Assembly: GCA_009761415.1 (NCBI GenBank)
Contig: QUOL01000009.1
Location: forward strand, 496,001 to 560,000
Direction of reading: 5' to 3'
Length of the DNA stretch: 64,000 bases
DNA from: Sarcomyxa edulis
Taxonomy: Eukaryota > Basidiomycota > Agaricomycetes > Agaricales > Mycenaceae
In this document: positions 49,343 through 61,459 of the stretch, one piece after another
How the letters are laid out: every line of letters starts with the position of its first letter
How positions within the stretch are numbered: position 1 is the stretch's first letter
Made by a program: the position numbers and the translations under genes
Notes under the pieces: generated by a model
Told to the model about the DNA's origin: nothing
Database searches by the model: none
The model's input: the letters and a program-made list of their open reading frames with translations, nothing else

Positions 49343-49852
49343 TGGGACCGTAACGCGATCGAGTGTTGGTCCGAGCAGAGCGAACGACTGTTCGACGACA
49401 GCTGGAAGTGAGCGAGCGCTGAGGTGTGAAGACCTCGAGCCGACCAGGCGAGCAGTCGGGAACCTAAAACAAAAAGAAAAGAGAAGAGAGAAGGAAGGGG
49501 AGAGTCGCGTTCAGGCAACCCGTGAACACGTAGACTCTCTCCTCTGTCCAGGCAACCCGTGGACAGCCCTTCTCCGGTCTGGGGATGCCGTCAGTATCGG
49601 CGTCCTCCTCGACGCTTACCTTGAGTCGCGCAGAGCGTAGAGGCGCTGAATGTAGCGCGTCACGCTGTAGCCCGAGAGGGAAGTGAGAGGGAAAAGAAGA
49701 GATGATTATTCAGCGCCAGCTCGGCGCGTAACTAGTGACGTGACTACGTGACTATGGTACAAGCCGACTCGGGTTGAACCGAATCGGGCCAGATCGTAAC
49801 TACTATCCTAATGCTAATGTTTCTTACTGGAATATGATGCATGTGCGTCCCA
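49343..49852 (-). repeat. 3' LTR of gypsy element
   Basis: 510 bp, identical to 60950-61459. It contains a 10-bp inverted repeat (GGCGCTGAAT at 49642, its complement at 49708) and two same-loop hairpins (49509-49527, 49544-49566). Confidence 0.95.
49509..49566 (-). other. Two same-loop hairpins in 3' LTR
   Basis: On the + strand, stem GTTCA/TGAAC (49509-49527) and stem CTGTCCA/TGGACAG (49544-49566) both enclose the 9-nt loop GGCAACCCG. Confidence 0.75.
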
Positions 49853-49860
49853 AAGCCCCC

Positions 49861-52704
49861 CTACGATCTGTGCTCGATCGGTGAGAATGGTTCGGGAATG
49901 TGAATGTCCGCTAAGGCCGTCTTGTCCCAGACTGTGGAGTAAGCGTTCACCAGCCGAACGTGTGCGTCCTGCCAGTCTCGTTGGGTAGGAATGAATTCGG
50001 GGGCATGACCGTGCCGATTATCGCTACGCAAGTACTGACGCCATTTCCCTGGAGTGAGGAGCTCGAACGTACCATCCTGGCAAGACTCCCAGACGTCGTT
50101 CATAATACGATGAATAGTTTTGTTCATCTCCCCCGACCAATGCCTCGAGTGTTTACGCAGTATGGCCGCCGAGGGGAAGAGCGAGGCGTCGACATCCGCG
50201 CTGGTCTTACTCCCTACGAAACCCAGTAAGATCTTGACTTCGTTATCCGACAGTACGTCGTGCCGATGACGAAGTCCCGTTGCCGCATCGATAAAGCCTT
50301 TCTGGTGTAAAGTGGACTGAACCGAAGGGCCCGACATTGCCCGCCCTACGATCTCGTCCCCCTTCAACTTCCTAGCTATCCATGCAACTGGTCCTCCTTG
50401 GAAGATCGCCGCTCTGGCATGAGGTCGATTCAAGATTTCTCGAGCACGGACAAAATACTGGTTCAAGAACTCCTGTCCGCCCTGACCCCAAACCAACGGA
50501 GGCTCCTTGAAATCAACGTCGTAGTACACGGAGGCAGCCAAATCATCCGCACTGGGGGCCGCGGGACAGAATACGTCCAAACGACTCTGGGGCACTGCCA
50601 CTTCAAATGCAATTCCATGTTCGATGGCCATGCTAAGGACCTGCTGGACATCGCGCATGCTAGACAGCGTGTTAGCCCAGTACCGCATCCGAACCTCACT
50701 GCTGAGATCCTTGAGATAAAGAACGCCCCACTTGATGTAGAGTGGGTCCCACATGAGATTAGAGGGCAACTCCGCTAAGTTCTCTGGAAAGGTGAATTTC
50801 GCCGCCCAACGACCGAATTCGTCAATAAAGTCCCTGAGCGGCTGAGGCTCTATATCCACAAAAGAGGGACCAGGCTCGTTAGGGAGAGAAATCCTGTCGC
50901 TTAATCTGGTCGGTTGGGTCATAGCTGTAACCCATTCTGAGGCGCGGCCTCGGTCGTCATCGTCATCTTCCACTAGAGGCGCTACTGACGACTGCCTGGA
51001 CAAAGAAGTGCTGGATGCGTAGCGGGCATCGTTTCGGTAATAGCTTCGAGCGGCGGGTTTGCTGGAGCTGCGCTCAAGGTCCGTCCTGAAATCGCGCTCA
51101 TAGTGACTGTAGCGGCCCGATTCCTGCTGACGACGCCTTTCGTTCCTGTATTCCGATCCTGTCGAACTGTACTCCCTGCGCTTCTGCGATCGTCGACGTT
51201 GATTGAGTATAGTTGGACGCTGGGGGGACGGGGAACGGCGGGGAGAATGGGAGATTGGGTTGACGACCCTCGGTAGCTTGGTCGAGGATGATGCCGATGA
51301 ACTTAACCTGGCTGACGCTTCCTTAGCGGACTTCAAAGCCTCCGCAGAAAACGACGCCAAGGATTGAGTCGTGATGCTCGAAATAGGGAGGTACGCATTC
51401 ACAGGGATCAAGCACCCAGGGTTAGGCGTATAGCCCGCTTTGTAGACTTCACGTATGGTGTCGATTTCTTCGTGATCGTAACTCGGGTAACTGTCGGATG
51501 AGTCCGACATCGAGTCCGCTGAGTCCACGACCATTGCCGATGGTGACGCCCCCGGCCTTGCGCGAGGGAGAGGACGATAGCGCCAATAGATGATGTAACT
51601 GTCGCTGCCGTCCCTAATGATAGCCCTGTAATAGCGTTTTGCGTACCGTTGCCGAAGGTCCTGAGTAGGAACTAGCCTCAATTTCCAGTTAAGAAAGTCT
51701 TTTATATAGGCCCTCGTTTTCTTCCCTATCCCTTTGACAGTTTTCTCCGGTTCGGGTTCGAATCCCGCCAAACCATCCTGCAAATAGGCATCATAATCGG
51801 CTATGTGAGGGAAACAAGTGCTCTGGTCCGGGATGTCCACAAGGCTAATCGATCTAGGCTTAGAAGGGTCGTCTGGGTTAAAGGCAAGCTTATCGTACGC
51901 TTGGAGAAACGCTGGAGAGAGTCGCGTAAAACGGGGATTAGTGGCCTCGACTATCGTCCAAGGGTAGAAGACTGGGACATCAGCTGCCACTAGGAGGGGT
52001 AAGTTCATCTCCTGCCAGTCGCGGTTGATGTCTAAGAGTATGCCCCTGCGCTTTCGACCCATGGGAGAGAAGCGATTCACTTTATCGATGATGTCGCGCG
52101 GAAGATGCGCTCCCCAGTTGGTATTGGATTCACACCACCAACCCAAAAATCCAAGCCCGTCTAACATAGATCGCCTAGCGTCCGCAGCGACCGTCTCGAT
52201 TTCCCATGTCGAGGTATGTACGTCAAAGAGCCGGTCGAAAGAGAAATGGTTGGGAATGGGAGCGGACGTCGGATAATTAGACTTGTCCCTAATAACTCGG
52301 CAACATTCGTGGACTTCTAGTATGTCCGCGCGAGCCTTCCTGATCCAAGGGTCTGGGATTCGGAAACCCTTTGCCGTAGGTTCATCGACTTCCATTGGTC
52401 CCACTGATACGTTGAACTGATGATACCATGGGGTGTCGGGGTCAGCCCAATCGAGAGGAATCCACGCGCGCCAGTGATGGATCCGGAAGTACCAATCCGG
52501 TTCCAAAACCCACTCTATGCCTAGTAGCGTACCCAAAGGTCCCGTATCGCGAACGCGTTCGAGTAGATCCTTGACTGTCCAGGCATCGAGAGGAACGTGC
52601 TGACTATTTTGGGGGTGAGCGTTGAGCAGGACCCAAGTAACGCCTCCCAGCTCCTGAATCTGAGAGTGGGTGGTCGAGGTTCGGCTGAAGTAAATGTATT
52701 CCAT
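49861..52704 (-). CDS. Retroelement ORF2 of unknown function, in the env position
   Basis: A single open frame downstream of pol in the same orientation. The first ATG is at 52704 (MEYIYFSRTSTTHSQIQELG), giving 947 residues; the frame itself is open up to 52836. The N-terminal 400 residues are Trp-rich and look folded (YFRIHHWRAWIPLDWADPDT; MLDGLGFLGWWCESNTNWG). A central region of about 150 residues is disordered and basic, with RS-like runs (SHSPRRSPSPQRP; RRSQKRREYSSTGSEYRNER) and an acidic patch EDDDDDRG. The C-terminal 350 residues look folded again (FGRWAAKFTFPENLAELPSN; GPVAWIARKLKGDEI). No signal peptide, transmembrane segment or furin-like site is visible, so it is not a typical envelope. 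The stop overlaps the polypurine tract. I do not recognise a domain. RNA binding is only a guess from the basic region. Confidence 0.8.
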   Translation of the reverse strand: MEYIYFSRTSTTHSQIQELGGVTWVLLNAHPQNSQHVPLDAWTVKDLLERVRDTGPLGTLLGIEWVLEPDWYFRIHHWRAWIPLDWADPDTPWYHQFNVSVGPMEVDEPTAKGFRIPDPWIRKARADILEVHECCRVIRDKSNYPTSAPIPNHFSFDRLFDVHTSTWEIETVAADARRSMLDGLGFLGWWCESNTNWGAHLPRDIIDKVNRFSPMGRKRRGILLDINRDWQEMNLPLLVAADVPVFYPWTIVEATNPRFTRLSPAFLQAYDKLAFNPDDPSKPRSISLVDIPDQSTCFPHIADYDAYLQDGLAGFEPEPEKTVKGIGKKTRAYIKDFLNWKLRLVPTQDLRQRYAKRYYRAIIRDGSDSYIIYWRYRPLPRARPGASPSAMVVDSADSMSDSSDSYPSYDHEEIDTIREVYKAGYTPNPGCLIPVNAYLPISSITTQSLASFSAEALKSAKEASARLSSSASSSTKLPRVVNPISHSPRRSPSPQRPTILNQRRRSQKRREYSSTGSEYRNERRRQQESGRYSHYERDFRTDLERSSSKPAARSYYRNDARYASSTSLSRQSSVAPLVEDDDDDRGRASEWVTAMTQPTRLSDRISLPNEPGPSFVDIEPQPLRDFIDEFGRWAAKFTFPENLAELPSNLMWDPLYIKWGVLYLKDLSSEVRMRYWANTLSSMRDVQQVLSMAIEHGIAFEVAVPQSRLDVFCPAAPSADDLAASVYYDVDFKEPPLVWGQGGQEFLNQYFVRAREILNRPHARAAIFQGGPVAWIARKLKGDEIVGRAMSGPSVQSTLHQKGFIDAATGLRHRHDVLSDNEVKILLGFVGSKTSADVDASLFPSAAILRKHSRHWSGEMNKTIHRIMNDVWESCQDGTFELLTPGKWRQYLRSDNRHGHAPEFIPTQRDWQDAHVRLVNAYSTVWDKTALADIHIPEPFSPIEHRS

Positions 52705-52720
52705 GATGCGATGCGTGTCA

Positions 52721-52779
52721 GAAGGCAACCCTTTCCAACACTGATCGTTGACTTGCGCACTCGACAGGCAACCCGTGTC
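52721..52779 (-). other. Two same-loop hairpins before ORF2 ATG
   Basis: Stem GACA/TGTC with loop GGCAACCCG (52763-52779), and a weaker stem GAA/TTC with loop GGCAACCCT (52721-52735). They lie 17-75 nt upstream of the first ORF2 ATG in the direction of transcription. Confidence 0.65.
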
Positions 52780-52880
52780 TCGTACGCAAATCTTGGGTGG
52801 GAGTAGGAGAGGCTGGGAGAAAGCCTTTACGGCCAATTAGCTGAATTTTAAAGTCGACTCGGAAGTATCCGGTCGAAGGA

Positions 52881-52892
52881 GGATATATATAA
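52881..52892 (-). promoter_or_regulatory. Candidate internal TATA box for ORF2
   Basis: The 115-bp gap between gag-pol and ORF2 contains TTATATATATCC on the minus strand, about 180 nt before the first ORF2 ATG. AG acceptor-like sites (TTTCTCCCAG at 52813) lie between. Either an internal promoter or splicing could deliver ORF2 mRNA. Confidence 0.35.
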
Positions 52893-52951
52893 CATAAGTC
52901 CCCGTGAACGTAAGTACATATACTGCAAAATGTGCAAGTCCTGTGCGGAAT

Positions 52952-55900
52952 CTATACCTGGTGCTCGTCTCTGTATTTTCTCAAGAAAATGGACGAGTTC
53001 TTCATGTCCTTGACAGTCTTCCATTCGTCGAACTGAGGTCCGTACCCTTCCCATCGCACCAGGAATTGAATCTGTCGGTTCTTTCCTACATATCTGTGTC
53101 CAACGATCTTATCGATAGGAAATTCCTCCTTGGCAGGTCGATGGATGCGAGTCTCGGGTAAAACCTGCCTCGGTTCGAATTCGTCCGGCGAGGGTTTGTA
53201 CTTTTTGAGATGTTCGAAGTTGAAAATTGGCAGTCCCGGATATTGGTCGCTCATACGTAGCCTGAAAACCTTCGGGTTTATACGCTCCACCACCTCAAAT
53301 GGTCCGATCCACCTCTGAGTTAGTTTAGCACCGTCCCCCTTGGATTCAACCCATTCCAGCGAGTGCGGGTTGACTAAGACCATGTCTCCGACTTTGAAAT
53401 CCGGCACTTCTCGGCGCCCTTTATTGTATGATCGCACCCTTTTCTCCTGGGACCTGGCGATGGCCAAACGCGCATTATCCCTGTTGATTTGGAGCTGTTC
53501 CAAGAAGGTCTGAACGTCTTCGCCGGTTCTTCCTCGGACGATGTCGCGCTGATTCTTAGGGGCTATATAGTCCGATGGGCTTCTCGGGTGGAAGCCGTAC
53601 AGCAAGAAGTAAGGCGTGGTGCCCGTAGAAAAGTGCACGTTGTTATTGTAAGCGTATTCCAAAAGATGAATCCACTCGGCCCATGTGTCTTTCTGGAGCC
53701 CTACGTACGCTCTCAGCATAGTCTCGAGCTGCCTGTTGACGACCTCGGTTTGTCCGTCGTGTTGTGGGTGATGGGACGACGAGAGAGCCATCTTGGTTTT
53801 GAGCGCGGTTGCGACTGCTATCCAGAATTGAGATGTCCAGCGCGGGTCCCGATCTGTTATTATGCTATCCGGGAGACCGAAGCGCGTGGCCACGTTCTTG
53901 GTGAAGAGTGCTGCAAAGCCTTTCGTGTCCAGTCCTGTCGTTGTGGGGATGAACTGTGCATGTTTCGTTAGACGGTCAACAACGACGTAGATGGCGTTGA
54001 ACCCGTCAGACCACGGCAGATTCACTATAAAGTCCATGGAGATGGAGTCGTATGGCCGGGACGGAATTGGATTAGGTATAAGGAATCCGTACTTGTTGAA
54101 GTTTGAAAACTTTGTCTTTTGGCATACGTCGCATGAGTTGCAAAATCTCATTATATCCGATTTCATCTTTTTCCAGTAGAATTTCTGAGTCAACTTCTGC
54201 CACAGCTTTTCCGGGCTCGCATGAGCAGATTCGAACGGCGATTCATGGGTTTCCTTGAGTAAGAAAGCTCGTATGGAGTCGGGGACGCACAAACGAGGCT
54301 GGTAGTCAGCGTCCCTGAAGTATAACAGGCCTCGGTCGTCCTTGAAAAAGCGAGCTCCTGGTTTCCAGTTTTCTGGTGAGGAGTTCGGATCTTCCCATCT
54401 TGGCGCGAAGAACGGGTCCTTCCGGTATCCTTGCACTAACTTTTCCAGGAATTCCGGGCTTATGAAGATGTTGAGTGACGGTTGAACTGGGACGTTGAGT
54501 GCACCCCAGTATTCCTGTGGAGTGGGAGCTTCGTGTAGTTCCTCTCCCTCCTCGCTTTCCGAAAATTGCTCCGGTTGTGGTCTCTGGCTCGTGACGAAAT
54601 CCTCCTCGTAGCTCGCCCCCCCATCATCAGGAGAAGGTGCTTCTTCCTGCTTGGACATGCTTCTGGTGATTGCCCATACCGAACGTTGCCCTTGCAGACA
54701 GTCTCGAAGATCCCAGCTAACGTAGGTGGCCCTCTTCGCTGGAACCGAAGCATAGGCTCGCTCTTGGGCTTCCACCAATGAGTTGTCCGGTTCCAGCGCT
54801 CGTTCCGCGTCTCTAACGGGTGATATATGCGAAGGGGGATCCCTAGGGAGGCGGGATAGCGGATCCACATTAGAGTGTACCCTACCCTCCCGGTGAACTA
54901 TTTCCAATCCTGGGAATGCTGCAAAGACCGTACCCCATGCTGCCAGGCGTCGGTTCGTGTTTTCATAGGTTCTCGCCCACTGCAAGGCCGAATGATCGGT
55001 CACCAGGATAATACGCTCGCCTTCTATGAAGGGGAGAAATTTGACTAGCCCTTCTTTAGCGGCAAGCGCCTCCCTTTCTGTAGTAGTGTAGCGTCGTTCC
55101 GCTCCCTTGAATGTGCGAGACCAATAGGCTATAACCCTTTCGACATGAACGATCGTTGAATCCAAGTCCGTCCCCCAGACGTCAGTCGACGGGCTATCCA
55201 CTATCTTGCTAGTAAGGGTCACCGTTAACTTGGGCACCGGCTGACCTGCTTCGTAAAGCTTGCGCAGTCGTTCGTAGACCTTTGTATCCTTAAGATCGCG
55301 CACGGCTATAGGTTGCACCTGCTGGAGAGCACAACCGAGGGCCTCGTCCGAAGCGTCCGAGTAGAGACGATAAGGGGATCCTTCTATGGGGTGACCCAGT
55401 ACTGGAGCAGATCGCAAGGCGTCTTTAGCGCTGCGGAATGCAAACTCGGCGTCCGTATCCCATTCCCACTTATTGCCCTTCTTTAGTAACGCGAAAAGAG
55501 GAGTGCATATGTCGGCGTAGTACGGGATAAAGGACGAAAAATACACCACCATGCCCAGGAAAGTTTGCAGCTGCGATAGCTTCGTCGGCCGTTCAAGCTC
55601 CAAAATGGCTCGAACTTTCTCCCAATGCGTAGACAAGCCTAGCCTTGACACTTTATGGCCCAGTAACAGGATGGAGGAATAGAAAAGATGGCATTTGCTC
55701 GGGGAGAGTGTGATTCCCGACTTCTCGATAGCCTCCAAGACCTTGTCCAAGTGTTCAATATGTTCTTCGTAGGTCTTCGAATATATAACGATGTCGTCTA
55801 TGTAGACGAGACAAAAGATCCACAGGTAGGGCGCTAAGACCGATTGCATAACCCTTTGGAATATAGAGGGTCCGTTCCGCAGACCAAATGGCATCCGGAG

Positions 55901-58900
55901 AAATTGAAATAATCCTCGGTGGGTTCGGAATGCCGTCTTCTCAACGTCTTCGCGGGACATTTCCAGTTGAGTGAATCCAGAAAGAGCGTCCAGCGATGAC
56001 AAGACCTGCGCCCCCGAAAGCGAGGAAAGTATTTCTGATTGACGGGGAATGGGGAACTCATCCGGTATGGTCACCGAATTGAGTTTGCGATAATCCACAC
56101 AAAAACGAGGTTTCCCGTTCCTATACGCTATAACAACTGGGGCGCTCCATGGGCTCACGGACGGTTCTATGACTCCCTGCTCGAACCACTGATTCAATTG
56201 CTCGTCTATGACCGCTCGTTTCGCCGGGGAAGTGCCATACATAGGGACTGAAATTGGAACCTGACCGTCGACTGTACGAATATGAACCTTAGCGGGGTGA
56301 TGACCGAGCCTTCCATCGAATCCAAACGCTCCAATGCGCTTACGCAGCATTGCCCATGCTCTGTCCTTGAGGTGATCCGGAAGGGAACCTACGTCCATAA
56401 GTTCTTCCAATTGGTCCGATGGATACACGGTGGGATCGGCCATCTCCGCGGTTTTGGGTCCAAAGTTCTCCTGTTCTTCGGAGGATGGTGGCGGTTCGGG
56501 TGGAGGGGATGGAAGGGGGTGTTCCGGAGAGGATTCAGGCTCCTGTGGGGTTCCGTCTGAATTAGTTTGGGTCGCTGCTTTGATGATGGCCGCCGCGGTC
56601 GCTGCGAATTTCCGCATGTCTTCCAAATGATGAATATCACGAGGCTTGTCCAAAAAATCCTCTGGGTCCCTCAGAATACCTATCGGGTCCCCTTTCCGGA
56701 TGTATCTTGGTCGTGTGGACGGGTTAGAGACAGGAATCCACGGCTTATCCGCCGATATGAGGACATTAGGTACGACAAAGAAAGATGATGGCGACGCTGA
56801 AGTTGAAAGAATGTTCTTCTCCACCAGCCAATCTTTCTGAACTCCGAAGTCGGCCATGACTTCGATTGGCTTACACTCGTGTGGGCGTAATCTGTAGTCG
56901 TGAGCCGCGCGAGCTGTGCGGCCCATCTCCTCTGTGTAGCGCCGCTTTCTTTGCCGCTTCGCTTTGTTCCTAGAATGCTGCTTTGCCTTAACAAAGTTTG
57001 CTTGCGCCAAAGCACTCTGCCTCATACGATGAAAGTCCGTGGTAGGAGCGGCATCAGTAGCTTGAACGGCGTGAGGTGTTCCGCTAAAATGAATGAATTT
57101 GCCTTTCTCCACGCTCCTGGAAGTCGTCAGTTCGTAATTCAGATGGTAGTCTTCCCCTAGAAGAATAGGAACAGTCATATTTGGAACAACGTAGGCCTCG
57201 GCTTCCGTCTGAATGATCTTGCCTTCCGTGGTGGTCATCAATATTGGGAGACGAACAAATCCCCTCAACGAGACGTCCTTGTCCGTGAGTTGCCATAGCT
57301 TCATCCGAAGGCCCTGTTGTAAGGTGGGTGGGGATTTCAACTGTCGATATGTATCTTCCGACAGAAGCGTAACGTCCGCTCCCGAGTCAAATCGTAAGTC
57401 CACTACGGCGTCGAGCGCGCTTCCTATGCGCCCCGGAGCGCTTAGAACTGAAACGCCGACAGCCGACAATCCTGGGGGTGTGACGCGCCTTCTTCTAAGA
57501 TGAATAATTTCTTCCGCGCGTAGTGATGGCGGAGGCTGCCCTGGTTCAGGCGGAAGTTTTGCTTCTGACTGTCCGCTCGAAGAGTAGAACGTTTCTTTGA
57601 CTGGCACCTCCTGCTCGGGCATTTGGCTCCTCCGTCCTGGCTCTTCAATCTCCGGAATCTCGTCTTGCTCCAAAATTCCCGACTTTGCTTTGGGTTTATT
57701 CCTTTCCTTTGCCACGTCCTCGTCCTCTATTTCTTCTATTCGAACACTCCGAGCTACATCGGGCTTACGTCCTGGCGGTACTAACTGGTGAGTCCGCGCC
57801 GCCTTTAAATGGACCGCCGAGTCAAAATCCTGAGGCAACGGAGCCGATAGTTGGGGGATTGCGGCTGCCCTTTGATTCCGCAATACGAGGTATGCATTCG
57901 AGTATACCACTTCAGGATCCTCTTCGTCTGGAGATGAGGACGAGAAGTTCGATCTCTTGGGCTGTCGAGAAAGGTAAGTGTCCCAGTCCGGACATTCCCT
58001 GTCCCAATGATTGTTGCTACCGCAAACCTTACAAGGGGACGGGGGTAAGCGGTTCATCTTTGTCGTTACGTGGTCATTCTTCTCAAATGGGTAGCCCCCC
58101 GGAGGTGGTGGTCTCTTGCGTTTGCTCATGACTTGGAAGGCTTCACGAAGAACCGCGTCTTCATTTCCTCCTAAGAGGAGGTCGTCCGAATTTTCCTCTG
58201 GAGCTTCGTCTTGGACTTCCTCGACTTGAGTGAGATTTGCTCTACGAGGTAGGAACTGGCGCTGGCGAGTTCGGTCTGAGGTGAGCGCGTTGGTCGAAAG
58301 ACCCAGACGCCTCATGGTAGACAACAGGTTCTCTTCTGTGACAACTCGGGCTACTGACTCCCGAGCCGCGTATACTAGCGTTTGGGCATTCATAGTCACT
58401 CTGGAGTATAAAGTTGTGGTATCCTTGATGCTGTCAATTCCTAGAGTTGCCCCCCAGGAAAGAGGAGCTCGAAGCATGACAAGGTAGACTTCCAAAGGCC
58501 CTCCTTCATCCCCATTCGCGAGCATTCTAGTATACATGACTCTTCGAATAATAAACTTCTGCGGGGATTCTTTATCATGACCCTGTTGTCGGAATGACTG
58601 TTGTCCATATTCCGTCTGCATCCGCAAGAGCCAGGTTTTTCCAAGATAGTCATCCTTGAGAACTCGGAGGTAGTTCATGTAGTTTTTCCTCATGAACGCC
58701 TGCCGCGCTGGGTCGAGCATGTCGAACCATTCCTGTACATCGGAGCCTTCCTTAAGATTAGAAGCTAGCCAAAATCCAAGTGCTTCCGGGAGATGGCCTC
58801 CGAGCGACGCCATCTTCTGAACTCTCCAGAAGTATGATATGGCGGTATCGTGACTGCCATCCCAGGAGGGTAAATCCTCGCGTTTGAGTTCCGCTTTGAC

Positions 58901-60868
58901 CGTCGGAACAGCCGTTCCATACGGGTATTGAGTCGATACCCCCGCTGTGGCCTTGGAATTGTAAGGATTCGGTGGGGATCGTCGACCGCCTCGGCTTCCT
59001 TCACCATTCCCGCCGTTGTCGTCACCCCCGCCTCCTCCACCACCCCCTCCACGCCCCCCATTGCTGGAGCTACTAGAGCTACTGCTACTAGATGGGTGTT
59101 TGGATGGTGGTTTACGGTGATCATTCAGCGGCCATTCTTGAGGATCTTCGTCCGACGAGTCCTCCGAACGATTTTTATGGGAGACGCTAGCGTAGCCGTA
59201 GGGACCGTCCCCACGAATGTCTTTTGATATGAACGTTCCTAACGGTTTTAGCTTAGGTTGTGAAAACTCTTCCCCGCTCCGAGTCTTGGAAGATGGGAAT
59301 GGGGTAGCCATTCCTCTAAGCGGCACCGAGTTATGAAGTCCCGGGGGGGAAACGTAAGCCCTCGGATGCTGATCCAGATCATCGAGGAACGCTGTCGCCG
59401 ATTTGAAAGGCGTGGGGTCACCTATAGAACTGTAGTCCTTTTGGTAACGGGCTTCTTCGTTACTCGGGCGAGACGTTCCTGCCGGAAGAGGGTTGTCCTT
59501 AGCTTGGGGAAGAGAACGATCGACGCTAGGGGAAGTGTCGTGTTCACTCGATGGAAGATGGATACTGGCCGGGTCTATGGAAACTTTTCGTTTCCCTTTG
59601 TCCGGTCGGTCTTTAGTAACGTGAGAGTCGTCTTCAGGAAGTTGAAATCCCGGCCCTGCTCCGTAACTTGTCCGGGGAGGAATCATCCGTTCTATCCGTT
59701 GCCCTCTAGCGTCATACGTCACAGTGACTGGACGAGGTTCCGGTTGACGATCAGGGAAGGATCGCAGGAGTGGAGAAGATACTAGAACGACGTCCTCCAG
59801 GGGTTGACCCCGGGACAGCTTGGTTTGCGTGCCAGGTAAAAAGAGCTCGCTATGACGAGGGACTTCCGTGACTAACTTATACAGGCGTTCCCTGTTTGAA
59901 AGGTCCTCGTTAAACGAAGCGTAAATCTCCGGGTTGGTCGAAGCCGGGGAAAGGATTCTTTCACTCGTCTTGAATTCTGCGTCATATTTCTCGAAGAACC
60001 TCTGTCCTACCGCTATTCGAGCTCTGAGAGCTGCCCAAGCCGTGGAAATCTCCGCAAGAGTCCCACATCCATTAAGGGTAGAGTGCAAGAATCCCAATGG
60101 GTCGACTTGAAAGGACGACTCCCTGTCCACTAGAGCCGACGCTTTGTCCAAGACCTCCTGTAAGCCTTTTAAGGTAGCCGTCAGCATAGTCGCAAAAGGC
60201 TCGTTAACCGCGAATCGCGGTTTACTGCTGAGGGTAGAAATTCCTCGATCAAGGACATCTGTGATTTCGAGTTTCGTCTTTCCTGACAAGAGAGTTGCTA
60301 AGTAGAAGGTAGACCCGTAAGGCGCTGATACGTCGTTGTATAATAAACGCAACTCCGCCATTTTAGACATAGCGTAGCCGCCCTCCTCCATCTTCTTCTG
60401 CAGTACCAATGCGTCCGGTAACTGCCTGAGGTTCTCAATAATGGGCTCAAATTCCGCGTCTTCTACTGTTTGGGGAACTTCGGGGGGAGGACGTGACAAG
60501 GTTTCCTCGCTTTGAGTCTTGGCTGGGACCCGTTGAGCGCTGGCACTGGACCCCTTCCCTTTGAGAGGCGGTACAGAGGAACTGGGGACTCGCGAGCGAG
60601 GGGGTATTGACGTGTGGAGTTTAATCTTCAATTCCTCCGAAGTCTTAGGAGTTAGCGATTGTTTTGACGGAAGAGGAGGGTTGCGAGATAAGACTCTCCC
60701 CCTCTGACTTTGACCTTGCGAGCTGATTGCTCTATTTCTCGAGCCCGGTCTAGACTGCGATTCGAATTCCGGGGTGCTTGGAGAAGGAGACCAAGATGGT
60801 ACATCCGAGTCTTCTAATTGGTTGCGAGACGAGGATGACGACCTTGGGAATAGTGCTTCCGACGTCAT
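52952..60868 (-). CDS. Gag-Pol polyprotein of gypsy chromovirus
   Basis: One uninterrupted frame of 2,638 codons from the ATG at 60868 (MTSEALFPRSSSSS); the frame is open further upstream into the LTR. In order: a disordered N-terminal region; a gag core (REDLPSWDGSHDTAISYFWR); a CCHC zinc knuckle CKVCGSNNHWDREC near residue 950; an aspartic protease FDSGADVTLL near 1163; reverse transcriptase with YIDDIVIYS near 1690; RNase H (YSDASDEALG, TTEREALAAKEG, VTDHSALQWA); and an integrase zinc region ending CNSCDVCQ. The integrase DDE core follows (SMDFIVNLPW near 2280, IITDRDPRW, HPQHDGQTEVVNRQ). A C-terminal chromodomain (IDKIVGHRYVGKNRQIQFLV, RWEGYGPQFDEWK) probably guides insertion through chromatin. 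Gag and Pol are fused with no frameshift or stop between them. All visible catalytic residues are present. Confidence 0.95.
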   Translation of the reverse strand: MTSEALFPRSSSSSRNQLEDSDVPSWSPSPSTPEFESQSRPGSRNRAISSQGQSQRGRVLSRNPPLPSKQSLTPKTSEELKIKLHTSIPPRSRVPSSSVPPLKGKGSSASAQRVPAKTQSEETLSRPPPEVPQTVEDAEFEPIIENLRQLPDALVLQKKMEEGGYAMSKMAELRLLYNDVSAPYGSTFYLATLLSGKTKLEITDVLDRGISTLSSKPRFAVNEPFATMLTATLKGLQEVLDKASALVDRESSFQVDPLGFLHSTLNGCGTLAEISTAWAALRARIAVGQRFFEKYDAEFKTSERILSPASTNPEIYASFNEDLSNRERLYKLVTEVPRHSELFLPGTQTKLSRGQPLEDVVLVSSPLLRSFPDRQPEPRPVTVTYDARGQRIERMIPPRTSYGAGPGFQLPEDDSHVTKDRPDKGKRKVSIDPASIHLPSSEHDTSPSVDRSLPQAKDNPLPAGTSRPSNEEARYQKDYSSIGDPTPFKSATAFLDDLDQHPRAYVSPPGLHNSVPLRGMATPFPSSKTRSGEEFSQPKLKPLGTFISKDIRGDGPYGYASVSHKNRSEDSSDEDPQEWPLNDHRKPPSKHPSSSSSSSSSSNGGRGGGGGGGGGDDNGGNGEGSRGGRRSPPNPYNSKATAGVSTQYPYGTAVPTVKAELKREDLPSWDGSHDTAISYFWRVQKMASLGGHLPEALGFWLASNLKEGSDVQEWFDMLDPARQAFMRKNYMNYLRVLKDDYLGKTWLLRMQTEYGQQSFRQQGHDKESPQKFIIRRVMYTRMLANGDEGGPLEVYLVMLRAPLSWGATLGIDSIKDTTTLYSRVTMNAQTLVYAARESVARVVTEENLLSTMRRLGLSTNALTSDRTRQRQFLPRRANLTQVEEVQDEAPEENSDDLLLGGNEDAVLREAFQVMSKRKRPPPPGGYPFEKNDHVTTKMNRLPPSPCKVCGSNNHWDRECPDWDTYLSRQPKRSNFSSSSPDEEDPEVVYSNAYLVLRNQRAAAIPQLSAPLPQDFDSAVHLKAARTHQLVPPGRKPDVARSVRIEEIEDEDVAKERNKPKAKSGILEQDEIPEIEEPGRRSQMPEQEVPVKETFYSSSGQSEAKLPPEPGQPPPSLRAEEIIHLRRRRVTPPGLSAVGVSVLSAPGRIGSALDAVVDLRFDSGADVTLLSEDTYRQLKSPPTLQQGLRMKLWQLTDKDVSLRGFVRLPILMTTTEGKIIQTEAEAYVVPNMTVPILLGEDYHLNYELTTSRSVEKGKFIHFSGTPHAVQATDAAPTTDFHRMRQSALAQANFVKAKQHSRNKAKRQRKRRYTEEMGRTARAAHDYRLRPHECKPIEVMADFGVQKDWLVEKNILSTSASPSSFFVVPNVLISADKPWIPVSNPSTRPRYIRKGDPIGILRDPEDFLDKPRDIHHLEDMRKFAATAAAIIKAATQTNSDGTPQEPESSPEHPLPSPPPEPPPSSEEQENFGPKTAEMADPTVYPSDQLEELMDVGSLPDHLKDRAWAMLRKRIGAFGFDGRLGHHPAKVHIRTVDGQVPISVPMYGTSPAKRAVIDEQLNQWFEQGVIEPSVSPWSAPVVIAYRNGKPRFCVDYRKLNSVTIPDEFPIPRQSEILSSLSGAQVLSSLDALSGFTQLEMSREDVEKTAFRTHRGLFQFLRMPFGLRNGPSIFQRVMQSVLAPYLWIFCLVYIDDIVIYSKTYEEHIEHLDKVLEAIEKSGITLSPSKCHLFYSSILLLGHKVSRLGLSTHWEKVRAILELERPTKLSQLQTFLGMVVYFSSFIPYYADICTPLFALLKKGNKWEWDTDAEFAFRSAKDALRSAPVLGHPIEGSPYRLYSDASDEALGCALQQVQPIAVRDLKDTKVYERLRKLYEAGQPVPKLTVTLTSKIVDSPSTDVWGTDLDSTIVHVERVIAYWSRTFKGAERRYTTTEREALAAKEGLVKFLPFIEGERIILVTDHSALQWARTYENTNRRLAAWGTVFAAFPGLEIVHREGRVHSNVDPLSRLPRDPPSHISPVRDAERALEPDNSLVEAQERAYASVPAKRATYVSWDLRDCLQGQRSVWAITRSMSKQEEAPSPDDGGASYEEDFVTSQRPQPEQFSESEEGEELHEAPTPQEYWGALNVPVQPSLNIFISPEFLEKLVQGYRKDPFFAPRWEDPNSSPENWKPGARFFKDDRGLLYFRDADYQPRLCVPDSIRAFLLKETHESPFESAHASPEKLWQKLTQKFYWKKMKSDIMRFCNSCDVCQKTKFSNFNKYGFLIPNPIPSRPYDSISMDFIVNLPWSDGFNAIYVVVDRLTKHAQFIPTTTGLDTKGFAALFTKNVATRFGLPDSIITDRDPRWTSQFWIAVATALKTKMALSSSHHPQHDGQTEVVNRQLETMLRAYVGLQKDTWAEWIHLLEYAYNNNVHFSTGTTPYFLLYGFHPRSPSDYIAPKNQRDIVRGRTGEDVQTFLEQLQINRDNARLAIARSQEKRVRSYNKGRREVPDFKVGDMVLVNPHSLEWVESKGDGAKLTQRWIGPFEVVERINPKVFRLRMSDQYPGLPIFNFEHLKKYKPSPDEFEPRQVLPETRIHRPAKEEFPIDKIVGHRYVGKNRQIQFLVRWEGYGPQFDEWKTVKDMKNSSIFLRKYRDEHQV

Positions 60869-60949
60869 AGGATCGGAGCTCGCGCTGGGGCGAGGACTAT
60901 CCGACTCACTCTCCAGGTTGATGACAGCCGTCCCCTGCTTGTCCACCTT

Positions 60950-61459
60950 TGGGACCGTAACGCGATCGAGTGTTGGTCCGAGCAGAGCGAACGACTGTTC
61001 GACGACAGCTGGAAGTGAGCGAGCGCTGAGGTGTGAAGACCTCGAGCCGACCAGGCGAGCAGTCGGGAACCTAAAACAAAAAGAAAAGAGAAGAGAGAAG
61101 GAAGGGGAGAGTCGCGTTCAGGCAACCCGTGAACACGTAGACTCTCTCCTCTGTCCAGGCAACCCGTGGACAGCCCTTCTCCGGTCTGGGGATGCCGTCA
61201 GTATCGGCGTCCTCCTCGACGCTTACCTTGAGTCGCGCAGAGCGTAGAGGCGCTGAATGTAGCGCGTCACGCTGTAGCCCGAGAGGGAAGTGAGAGGGAA
61301 AAGAAGAGATGATTATTCAGCGCCAGCTCGGCGCGTAACTAGTGACGTGACTACGTGACTATGGTACAAGCCGACTCGGGTTGAACCGAATCGGGCCAGA
61401 TCGTAACTACTATCCTAATGCTAATGTTTCTTACTGGAATATGATGCATGTGCGTCCCA
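60950..61459 (-). repeat. 5' LTR of gypsy element
   Basis: 510 bp, same features as the other LTR. On the minus strand it contains a good splice donor (CAAG|GTAAGC at 61226) and a pyrimidine-tract acceptor (TTTTAG at 61071). These define a candidate 156-nt leader intron. Confidence 0.93.
61116..61173 (-). other. Two same-loop hairpins in 5' LTR
   Basis: Identical to the pair in the other LTR (61116-61134 and 61151-61173). They lie inside the candidate leader intron, upstream of gag-pol. Confidence 0.75.

Follow-up and report, generated by a model that had tools for sequence, protein, structure and literature searches.

Tandem bulged hairpins ahead of both reading frames of a Ty3/gypsy chromovirus in Sarcomyxa edulis

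The element and its repeated hairpins

The window analysed here, a stretch of 64,000 nucleotides (nt) of Sarcomyxa edulis DNA (contig QUOL01000009.1, positions 496,001 to 560,000), carries one Ty3/gypsy chromovirus on its minus strand. A tandem pair of predicted hairpins sits in the leader of its gag-pol frame, inside both long terminal repeats (LTRs), and again in the leader of a second open reading frame (ORF), ORF2 (Table 1). The element is assigned to the chromoviruses by its LTRs, by the target-site duplication (TSD) GCGAG that flanks it on both sides, and by a single gag-pol frame with reverse transcriptase, RNase H, integrase and chromodomain in that order. Pfam matches in gag-pol include RVT_1 (1.7e-32), RT_RNaseH (8.6e-19), Integrase_H2C2 (3.4e-16) and Chromo (1.1e-6); rve scores 31.2 bits, slightly under its 32.6 cut-off.

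The hairpins are marked by one 8-mer, GGGTTGCC on the transcribed strand, which a first-pass annotation had counted six times in the element and, by eye, nowhere else in the window. Both counts hold. The copies start at 49514, 49551, 52724, 52767, 61121 and 61158, no further copy occurs anywhere in the window, and six copies were reached by 0 of 100 shuffles. Because the LTRs are identical, four of the six copies are independent. All four are loops with a closing stem of at least 4 base pairs (bp), and three have at least 5 bp. When the 11.6-kb stretch, taken with a single LTR, was put through 500 dinucleotide shuffles, no 8-mer had more than three stem-closed copies, and three shuffles reached that number. 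The closing stems differ from copy to copy as had been described, except that the supposedly weak GAA/TTC stem is really a 9-bp stem, GTGTTGGAA/TTCTGACAC, with two G-U pairs. Genome-wide the word is ordinary, with 540 copies in 35.6 Mb against 651 of a reversed control, a frequency that predicts about 0.09 copies on the sense strand of the element. It is thus the concentration and structure of the copies that count, not the rarity of the word.

From base to tip, each hairpin consists of a stem that varies, a single bulged nucleotide on the 5' side, 2-3 bp and a four-base loop. The predicted fold of the LTR region (61087..61197) forms both cores, with 12 pairs enclosing the two, and that of the ORF2-leader region (52690..52806) contains two bulged tetraloop motifs, a number found in 0 of 300 shuffles.

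Table 1. Features of the element, in window coordinates (MFE, minimum free energy; z, fold z-score; R2, covariance model built from LTR hairpins)
Feature	Position	Strand	Remarks
LTR double-hairpin region, 5' LTR copy	61087..61197	-	predicted three-way junction; MFE -51.5, z -3.8
LTR double-hairpin region, 3' LTR copy	49480..49590	-	same sequence as 5' LTR copy
LTR hairpin A, 5' LTR	61150..61174	-	core 61158-61165; R2 26.7 bits (identical 3' LTR copy in training set)
LTR hairpin B, 5' LTR	61113..61137	-	core 61121-61128; R2 25.0 bits (identical 3' LTR copy in training set)
LTR hairpin A, 3' LTR	49543..49567	-	
LTR hairpin B, 3' LTR	49506..49530	-	
ORF2-leader double-hairpin region	52690..52806	-	MFE -43.1, z -3.8
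ORF2-leader hairpin A	52759..52783	-	core 52767-52774; GACA/TGTC stem, 4 bp; missed by R2 at E<=1
ORF2-leader hairpin B	52716..52740	-	core 52724-52731; 9-bp stem, two G-U; missed by R2 at E<=1
5' LTR	60950..61459	-	510 nt, TGGGAC...GTCCCA; identical to 3' LTR; TSD GCGAG
3' LTR	49343..49852	-	510 nt; identical to 5' LTR; TSD GCGAG
gag-pol	52952..60916	-	predicted CUG start 60916; stop-to-stop frame to 61117; first in-frame ATG 60868
ORF2	49861..52704	-	947 aa; ATG at 52704; without Pfam or fold match
Putative primer-binding site AAGGTGGACAA	60939..60949	-	adjoins 5' LTR; core GGTGGACAA in 5/5 leaders read
Intron-like GTAAGC...CTGAC...CAG	61186..61226	-	41 nt; just upstream of LTR hairpins; putative

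Conservation of the paired layout

A search of the same genome with ORF2 gave 24 matches across 15 elements. Fourteen distinct elements were examined, namely this one and 13 same-genome relatives; all were picked by ORF2 homology, so the presence of ORF2 in all 14 is by construction. C34b, whose leader sites are the same as those of C2b, was excluded from all hairpin counts. C10 was left out of alignment A4 and C39 out of the pol tree. C40b was left out of the ATG count, as an insertion parts its hairpins from ORF2; in C40b (L037, L012) another repeat lies between the two, and a stretch of the same sequence is also found in L062. In the nine relatives aligned at full length, ORF2 is 30-33% identical to that of this element. 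The last 399 residues of gag-pol show 61-65% identity in relatives matched over nearly their full length, and in C39 they match as two pieces of 75% and 57%.

All 14 elements have two LTR sites and two sites before ORF2, in agreement with the proposal that hairpin pairs precede both ORFs. Loss of the hairpins from relatives that keep the ORFs had been named beforehand as the outcome contrary to that proposal; every one of the 14 keeps both. Spacing between the paired hairpins is 37-42 nt in all 14 LTRs and 43-46 nt before ORF2 in 13, with 62 in C10. The literal 8-mer fails as a shared motif, since it occurs in none of the relatives' hairpin sites and in only a few other places of their loci, and the motif therefore had to be generalised. 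The core in the other 13 elements is GG-NNNN-CC or a near variant, and the first ORF2 sites of C10 and C1b are degenerate. GG, which was also a selection criterion, is present in 56/56 cores, the final C in 54 and the preceding C in 50; five of the six departures at this second-last base are U, which still pairs. The single unpaired 5'-side nucleotide either adjoins GG or lies one position further out. Judged from these alignments, the selected feature is the stem, bulge and GG-NNNN-CC core rather than the literal 8-mer.

Evidence for RNA structure

Taken across six positions of the stem, 285 of the 336 cells are paired, as against 42-51% with slid partners, and in 5000 arm shuffles the mean was 227 and the largest value 249. 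The first-pass annotation had read the constant loop with compensating stems as a selected RNA structure and called for a covariation check in relatives. In that check both sets of 28 rows score above all 500 shuffles, the LTR set at 0.505 (shuffled 0.232) and the ORF2 set at 0.617 (shuffled 0.224), while slid partners reach at most 0.223. The count of further pair types in the ORF2 set is likewise reached by 0/500 shuffles. The pair beside the bulge is open in 11/28 LTR and 7/28 ORF2 rows, and the outermost pair in 17/28 and 8/28. One-step cells comprise 31 G-U and 5 A-C, a balance that favours RNA.

RNAalifold finds both hairpins unaided in the LTR regions, where 11 of 16 pairs are changed on both sides in some sequence, and in 13 ORF2 leaders 12 of 17 pairs are so changed. 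In unconstrained single-sequence folds the core forms at 54/56 sites (28/28 in LTRs, 26/28 before ORF2), the failures being the A sites before ORF2 in C10 and C1b. In every LTR fold 9-16 pairs enclose both cores. Of the 14 LTR folds, 13 contain two copies of the strict motif, in which a single nucleotide bulges on the 5' side, and that of C1b contains none; two such motifs arise in 0-2 of 300 shuffles. Fold z-scores range from -1.9 to -6.1 for LTRs and from -0.5 to -3.8 for ORF2 leaders. Taken together, these comparisons support the view that the hairpins are real RNA structure.

A covariance model, R2, built from the 28 LTR hairpins alone was run on 24 sources (168.5 kb). At E<=1 it returned 33 hits: 14 LTR copies, 18 ORF2-leader hairpins and one off target (E 0.77). 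It thus recovered 18 of 28 held-out ORF2-leader hairpins, with E of 0.0004-0.45. Nine loci from other gypsy lineages, all without a found ORF2 (L044, L046-L048, L050-L053, L056), returned nothing, the LTRs of four of them lying outside that search. A two-hairpin model, R1, proved too specific and was set aside; in the window it matched the two LTR copies plus a chance hit (E 1.6) and missed the ORF2 leader. No Rfam covariance model matched in 10 sources (43,955 bases), where one hit at chance level (E 0.93) was far under its gathering score. No published description of this hairpin element was found in the literature searched, from which subscription papers mostly fell outside coverage.

Loop agreement and the candidate reader

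The four loop bases vary between elements. GUUG occurs four times in this element, AUUG twelve times across C11a, C17 and C2b, and ACUG eight times across C2a and C40b; C11b and C3 have mixed loops. Agreement between LTR and ORF2 loops of the same element was measured on ten elements, a single representative of each clade, with the pol tree as guide. It reached 128 of 160, compared with a permuted mean of 80.5 and 0/50,000 permutations as high; a second set of clade representatives gave 127 against 81.9, again with 0/50,000. Copying from site to site does not readily account for this, because the four hairpins of any one element have different stems. Loops match inside an element but vary among elements that share a host, a pattern most simply read as pointing to a recognition partner that the element itself encodes, probably a protein.

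ORF2 has relatives beyond this genome, at least two proteins in a set of 5.8 billion from which some 8,000 candidates sharing most words were scored. Both are tagged PF28437, a model without a hit in the local Pfam copy. No relative was confirmed in viral contigs, and the downstream proteins of the other-lineage loci L045 and L047 showed no similarity to the ORF2 profile over their first 285-372 residues. Among 12 aligned ORF2 members there are only two weak single-member Pfam hits (E 0.18 and 0.41). The predicted structure of ORF2 has a mean predicted local distance difference test score (pLDDT) of 62.8.

Start codons, splicing signals and other features

Five gag-pol leaders were read, that of this element (CUG at 60914-60916, minus strand) and those of L065, L066, L067 and L068. 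In all five an in-frame CUG in a strong context, (A/G)NNCUGG, lies 29-31 nt past GGTGGACAA, and no ATG intervenes between the LTR hairpins and that codon. The distance from the CUG to the first in-frame ATG is 48 nt in this element and 366-465 nt in the remaining four. By eye, the residues from CUG to ATG are alike in C17 and C2b. Every leader read contains further in-frame near-cognate codons. Judging from sequence context, gag-pol probably starts at the CUG. The ATG of ORF2 is the first after the hairpin pair in 13/13 uninterrupted elements, and in the same 13 the stretch that begins 72 nt upstream of ORF2 hairpin A is free of ATG up to this codon. C2a has additional in-frame ATGs far upstream.

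Intron-like patterns (GT-branch-AG, 39-52 nt) lie directly before the LTR hairpins in 5/14 elements: this one, C2a, C40b, C17 and C2b. In those five, 1 to 16 of 300 shuffles contain such a pattern. The strict pattern was not found in the other nine, and splicing as a general mechanism is hypothetical.

The core of the putative primer-binding site is conserved, and ATCC comes next in the four other leaders. A 521-nt LTR query found no full LTR outside this element in the 35.6-Mb genome. Three further places (L003, L004 and L005) have in common with the LTR end only some 72 nt, at 80-81% identity, and none of these loci showed a sense-strand hairpin of the type described. A host protein encoded in the window has its best matches, at 85% identity, among sequences that carry no species name; its named relatives are agaricomycetes such as Pleurotus, Marasmius and Schizophyllum, at 32-44%, in keeping with a basidiomycete host.

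Candidate mechanisms

The reading preferred here, with a probability of roughly one half, is that the tandem bulged-tetraloop pair is one cis-acting RNA element serving as a Gag-bound operator of packaging and translation. The binder would be an RNA-binding protein of the element's own, with Gag the likeliest. Once bound, the pair would tag genomic RNA for particles and would set the downstream ORF to either translation or assembly, much as the operator of phage MS2 does at the replicase start, though with an unrelated protein. In its general form the proposal is of a shared 5'-leader tag that either Gag or the ORF2 protein may bind in the service of packaging, export or translation. What the sequence comparison shows is the RNA fold and how it is conserved, the paired layout, and the agreement of loops between the two places within an element.

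Several observations weigh against this reading. Because the sites were partly chosen by eye for GG-NNNN-CC plus a stem, the shuffle tests were not entirely blind. For pairs changed on both sides, 18/500 shuffles reach the LTR count and 175/500 the ORF2 count; for further pair types in the LTR set, 82/500 do. The strict bulged motif appears twice in only 9/14 ORF2 folds, once in four and not at all in C1b, and the z-scores of the ORF2 leaders of C3, C2a and C1a are near zero. R2 misses the two ORF2-leader hairpins of this very element at E<=1. Finally, ORF2, a candidate binder, has no Pfam match, no PDB sequence relative at E<=1, and 29 PDB fold matches at E<=10 with none at E<=0.001.

A possible but doubtful alternative is that the ORF2 protein itself is the reader, binding the pair on unspliced RNA in the manner of Rev or CERV for export or protection and for control of its own mRNA; ORF2 would then be made from spliced or separately started RNA. 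An Arg-rich linker, seen by eye in this ORF2 and several relatives, is consistent with such a role, as are the silence of R2 at the nine loci without a found ORF2, four of them searched outside their LTRs, and the intron-like signal 61-76 nt before the LTR pair in 5/14 elements. There is also precedent in the worm element Cer1, in which CERV is made from spliced mRNA and is required for export of genomic RNA (PMC10309623). However, the Arg-rich stretch looks weak in C1a, C34a, C11b and C39, the strict intron pattern is missing in nine elements, ORF2 lacks a fold match, and its link to the hairpins is partly by construction, since the relatives were chosen by ORF2.

A role in translation, in which a host factor or the ribosome would recognise the pair to aid initiation at the gag-pol CUG and the ORF2 AUG, is rather unlikely. 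The position of the pairs upstream of both starts, the apparent CUG in all five leaders and the ATG-free stretches before both starts would fit. On the other hand, LTR hairpin A lies 194-249 nt ahead of the CUG, and a host factor should favour a single loop, whereas loops vary between elements of the same genome and agree within each.

That the palindromes work at the DNA level, perhaps as targets bound by integrase or a transcription factor, is very improbable: some copies do occur in LTRs, which often carry DNA-level control, but G-U is tolerated over A-C and both the one-nucleotide bulge and the strand-asymmetric core are kept. A role in RNA dimerisation or RNA-RNA loop pairing is equally remote: some loops (AUAU) are palindromic, but GUUG, AUUG and ACUG lack self-complementarity, and the sense strand of this element contains no reverse complement of the 8-mer.

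Comparison with known systems

An MS2-type operator consists of a stem, a single 5' bulge, two pairs and a four-base loop, a geometry that two motifs in each region of this element reproduce. The differences are that some relatives have the bulge 3 bp from the loop rather than two, that the hairpins here are tandem, occupy two places and have other bulge and loop bases, and that they lie in a eukaryotic retrotransposon. The MS2 operator is bound by coat protein, whereas ORF2 has no fold match, and the likeness is one of RNA shape.

In Ty1 and Ty3, as proposed here, a cis-acting leader RNA is thought to be read by Gag. The available text of PMC4974528 gives no precise definition of the Gag sites, reports splicing as undetected, and contains no duplicated hairpin pair of this kind. 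The CERV system of Cer1 (PMC10309623) and the retroviral Rev systems, like this element, have an additional protein beyond gag-pol, and theirs acts on unspliced RNA. In Rev and its response element the regulator comes from spliced mRNA, for which the possible counterpart here would be the intron-like pattern in 5/14 LTRs. Fungal chromodomain Gypsy elements have a chromodomain integrase, often a fused Gag-Pol, and, as named in a figure legend, an additional ORF of unknown function (PMC2864245). That layout resembles the one described here; the word "hairpin" is absent from the main text of that paper.

Implications for gypsy elements

It is also possible, if doubtful, that each family of elements in this host has its own protein-RNA code. 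ORF2 or Gag would then read the bulged tetraloop pair on both transcripts and coordinate its own translation with packaging and export, loops and proteins would co-evolve, one genome would hold several specific operator-protein pairs, and other gypsy lineages there may have the same bulged shape in a different sequence. As separate observations, other lineages (intergenic regions of L045, L046 and L047) have repeated hairpins with a bulged 5' base, in other sequences, ahead of a downstream ORF, for example GACC-U-GCAC...GUGC-GGUC, and L063 has bulged hairpins in the gag leader, also repeated within early gag. The density of generic bulged hairpins in these lineages exceeds shuffles only in the L045 intergenic region (4/200) and not in the other five regions.

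A compact RNA element is here marked by covariation across 14 related elements, where Gag sites of Ty1 and Ty3 stay imprecise in the available text of PMC4974528. Its natural loop variants are ready controls of specificity. Should a protein partner be found, the hairpin pair would be a switch resembling an operator in a eukaryotic retrotransposon, and the related elements would offer a set of distinct RNA-protein pairs.

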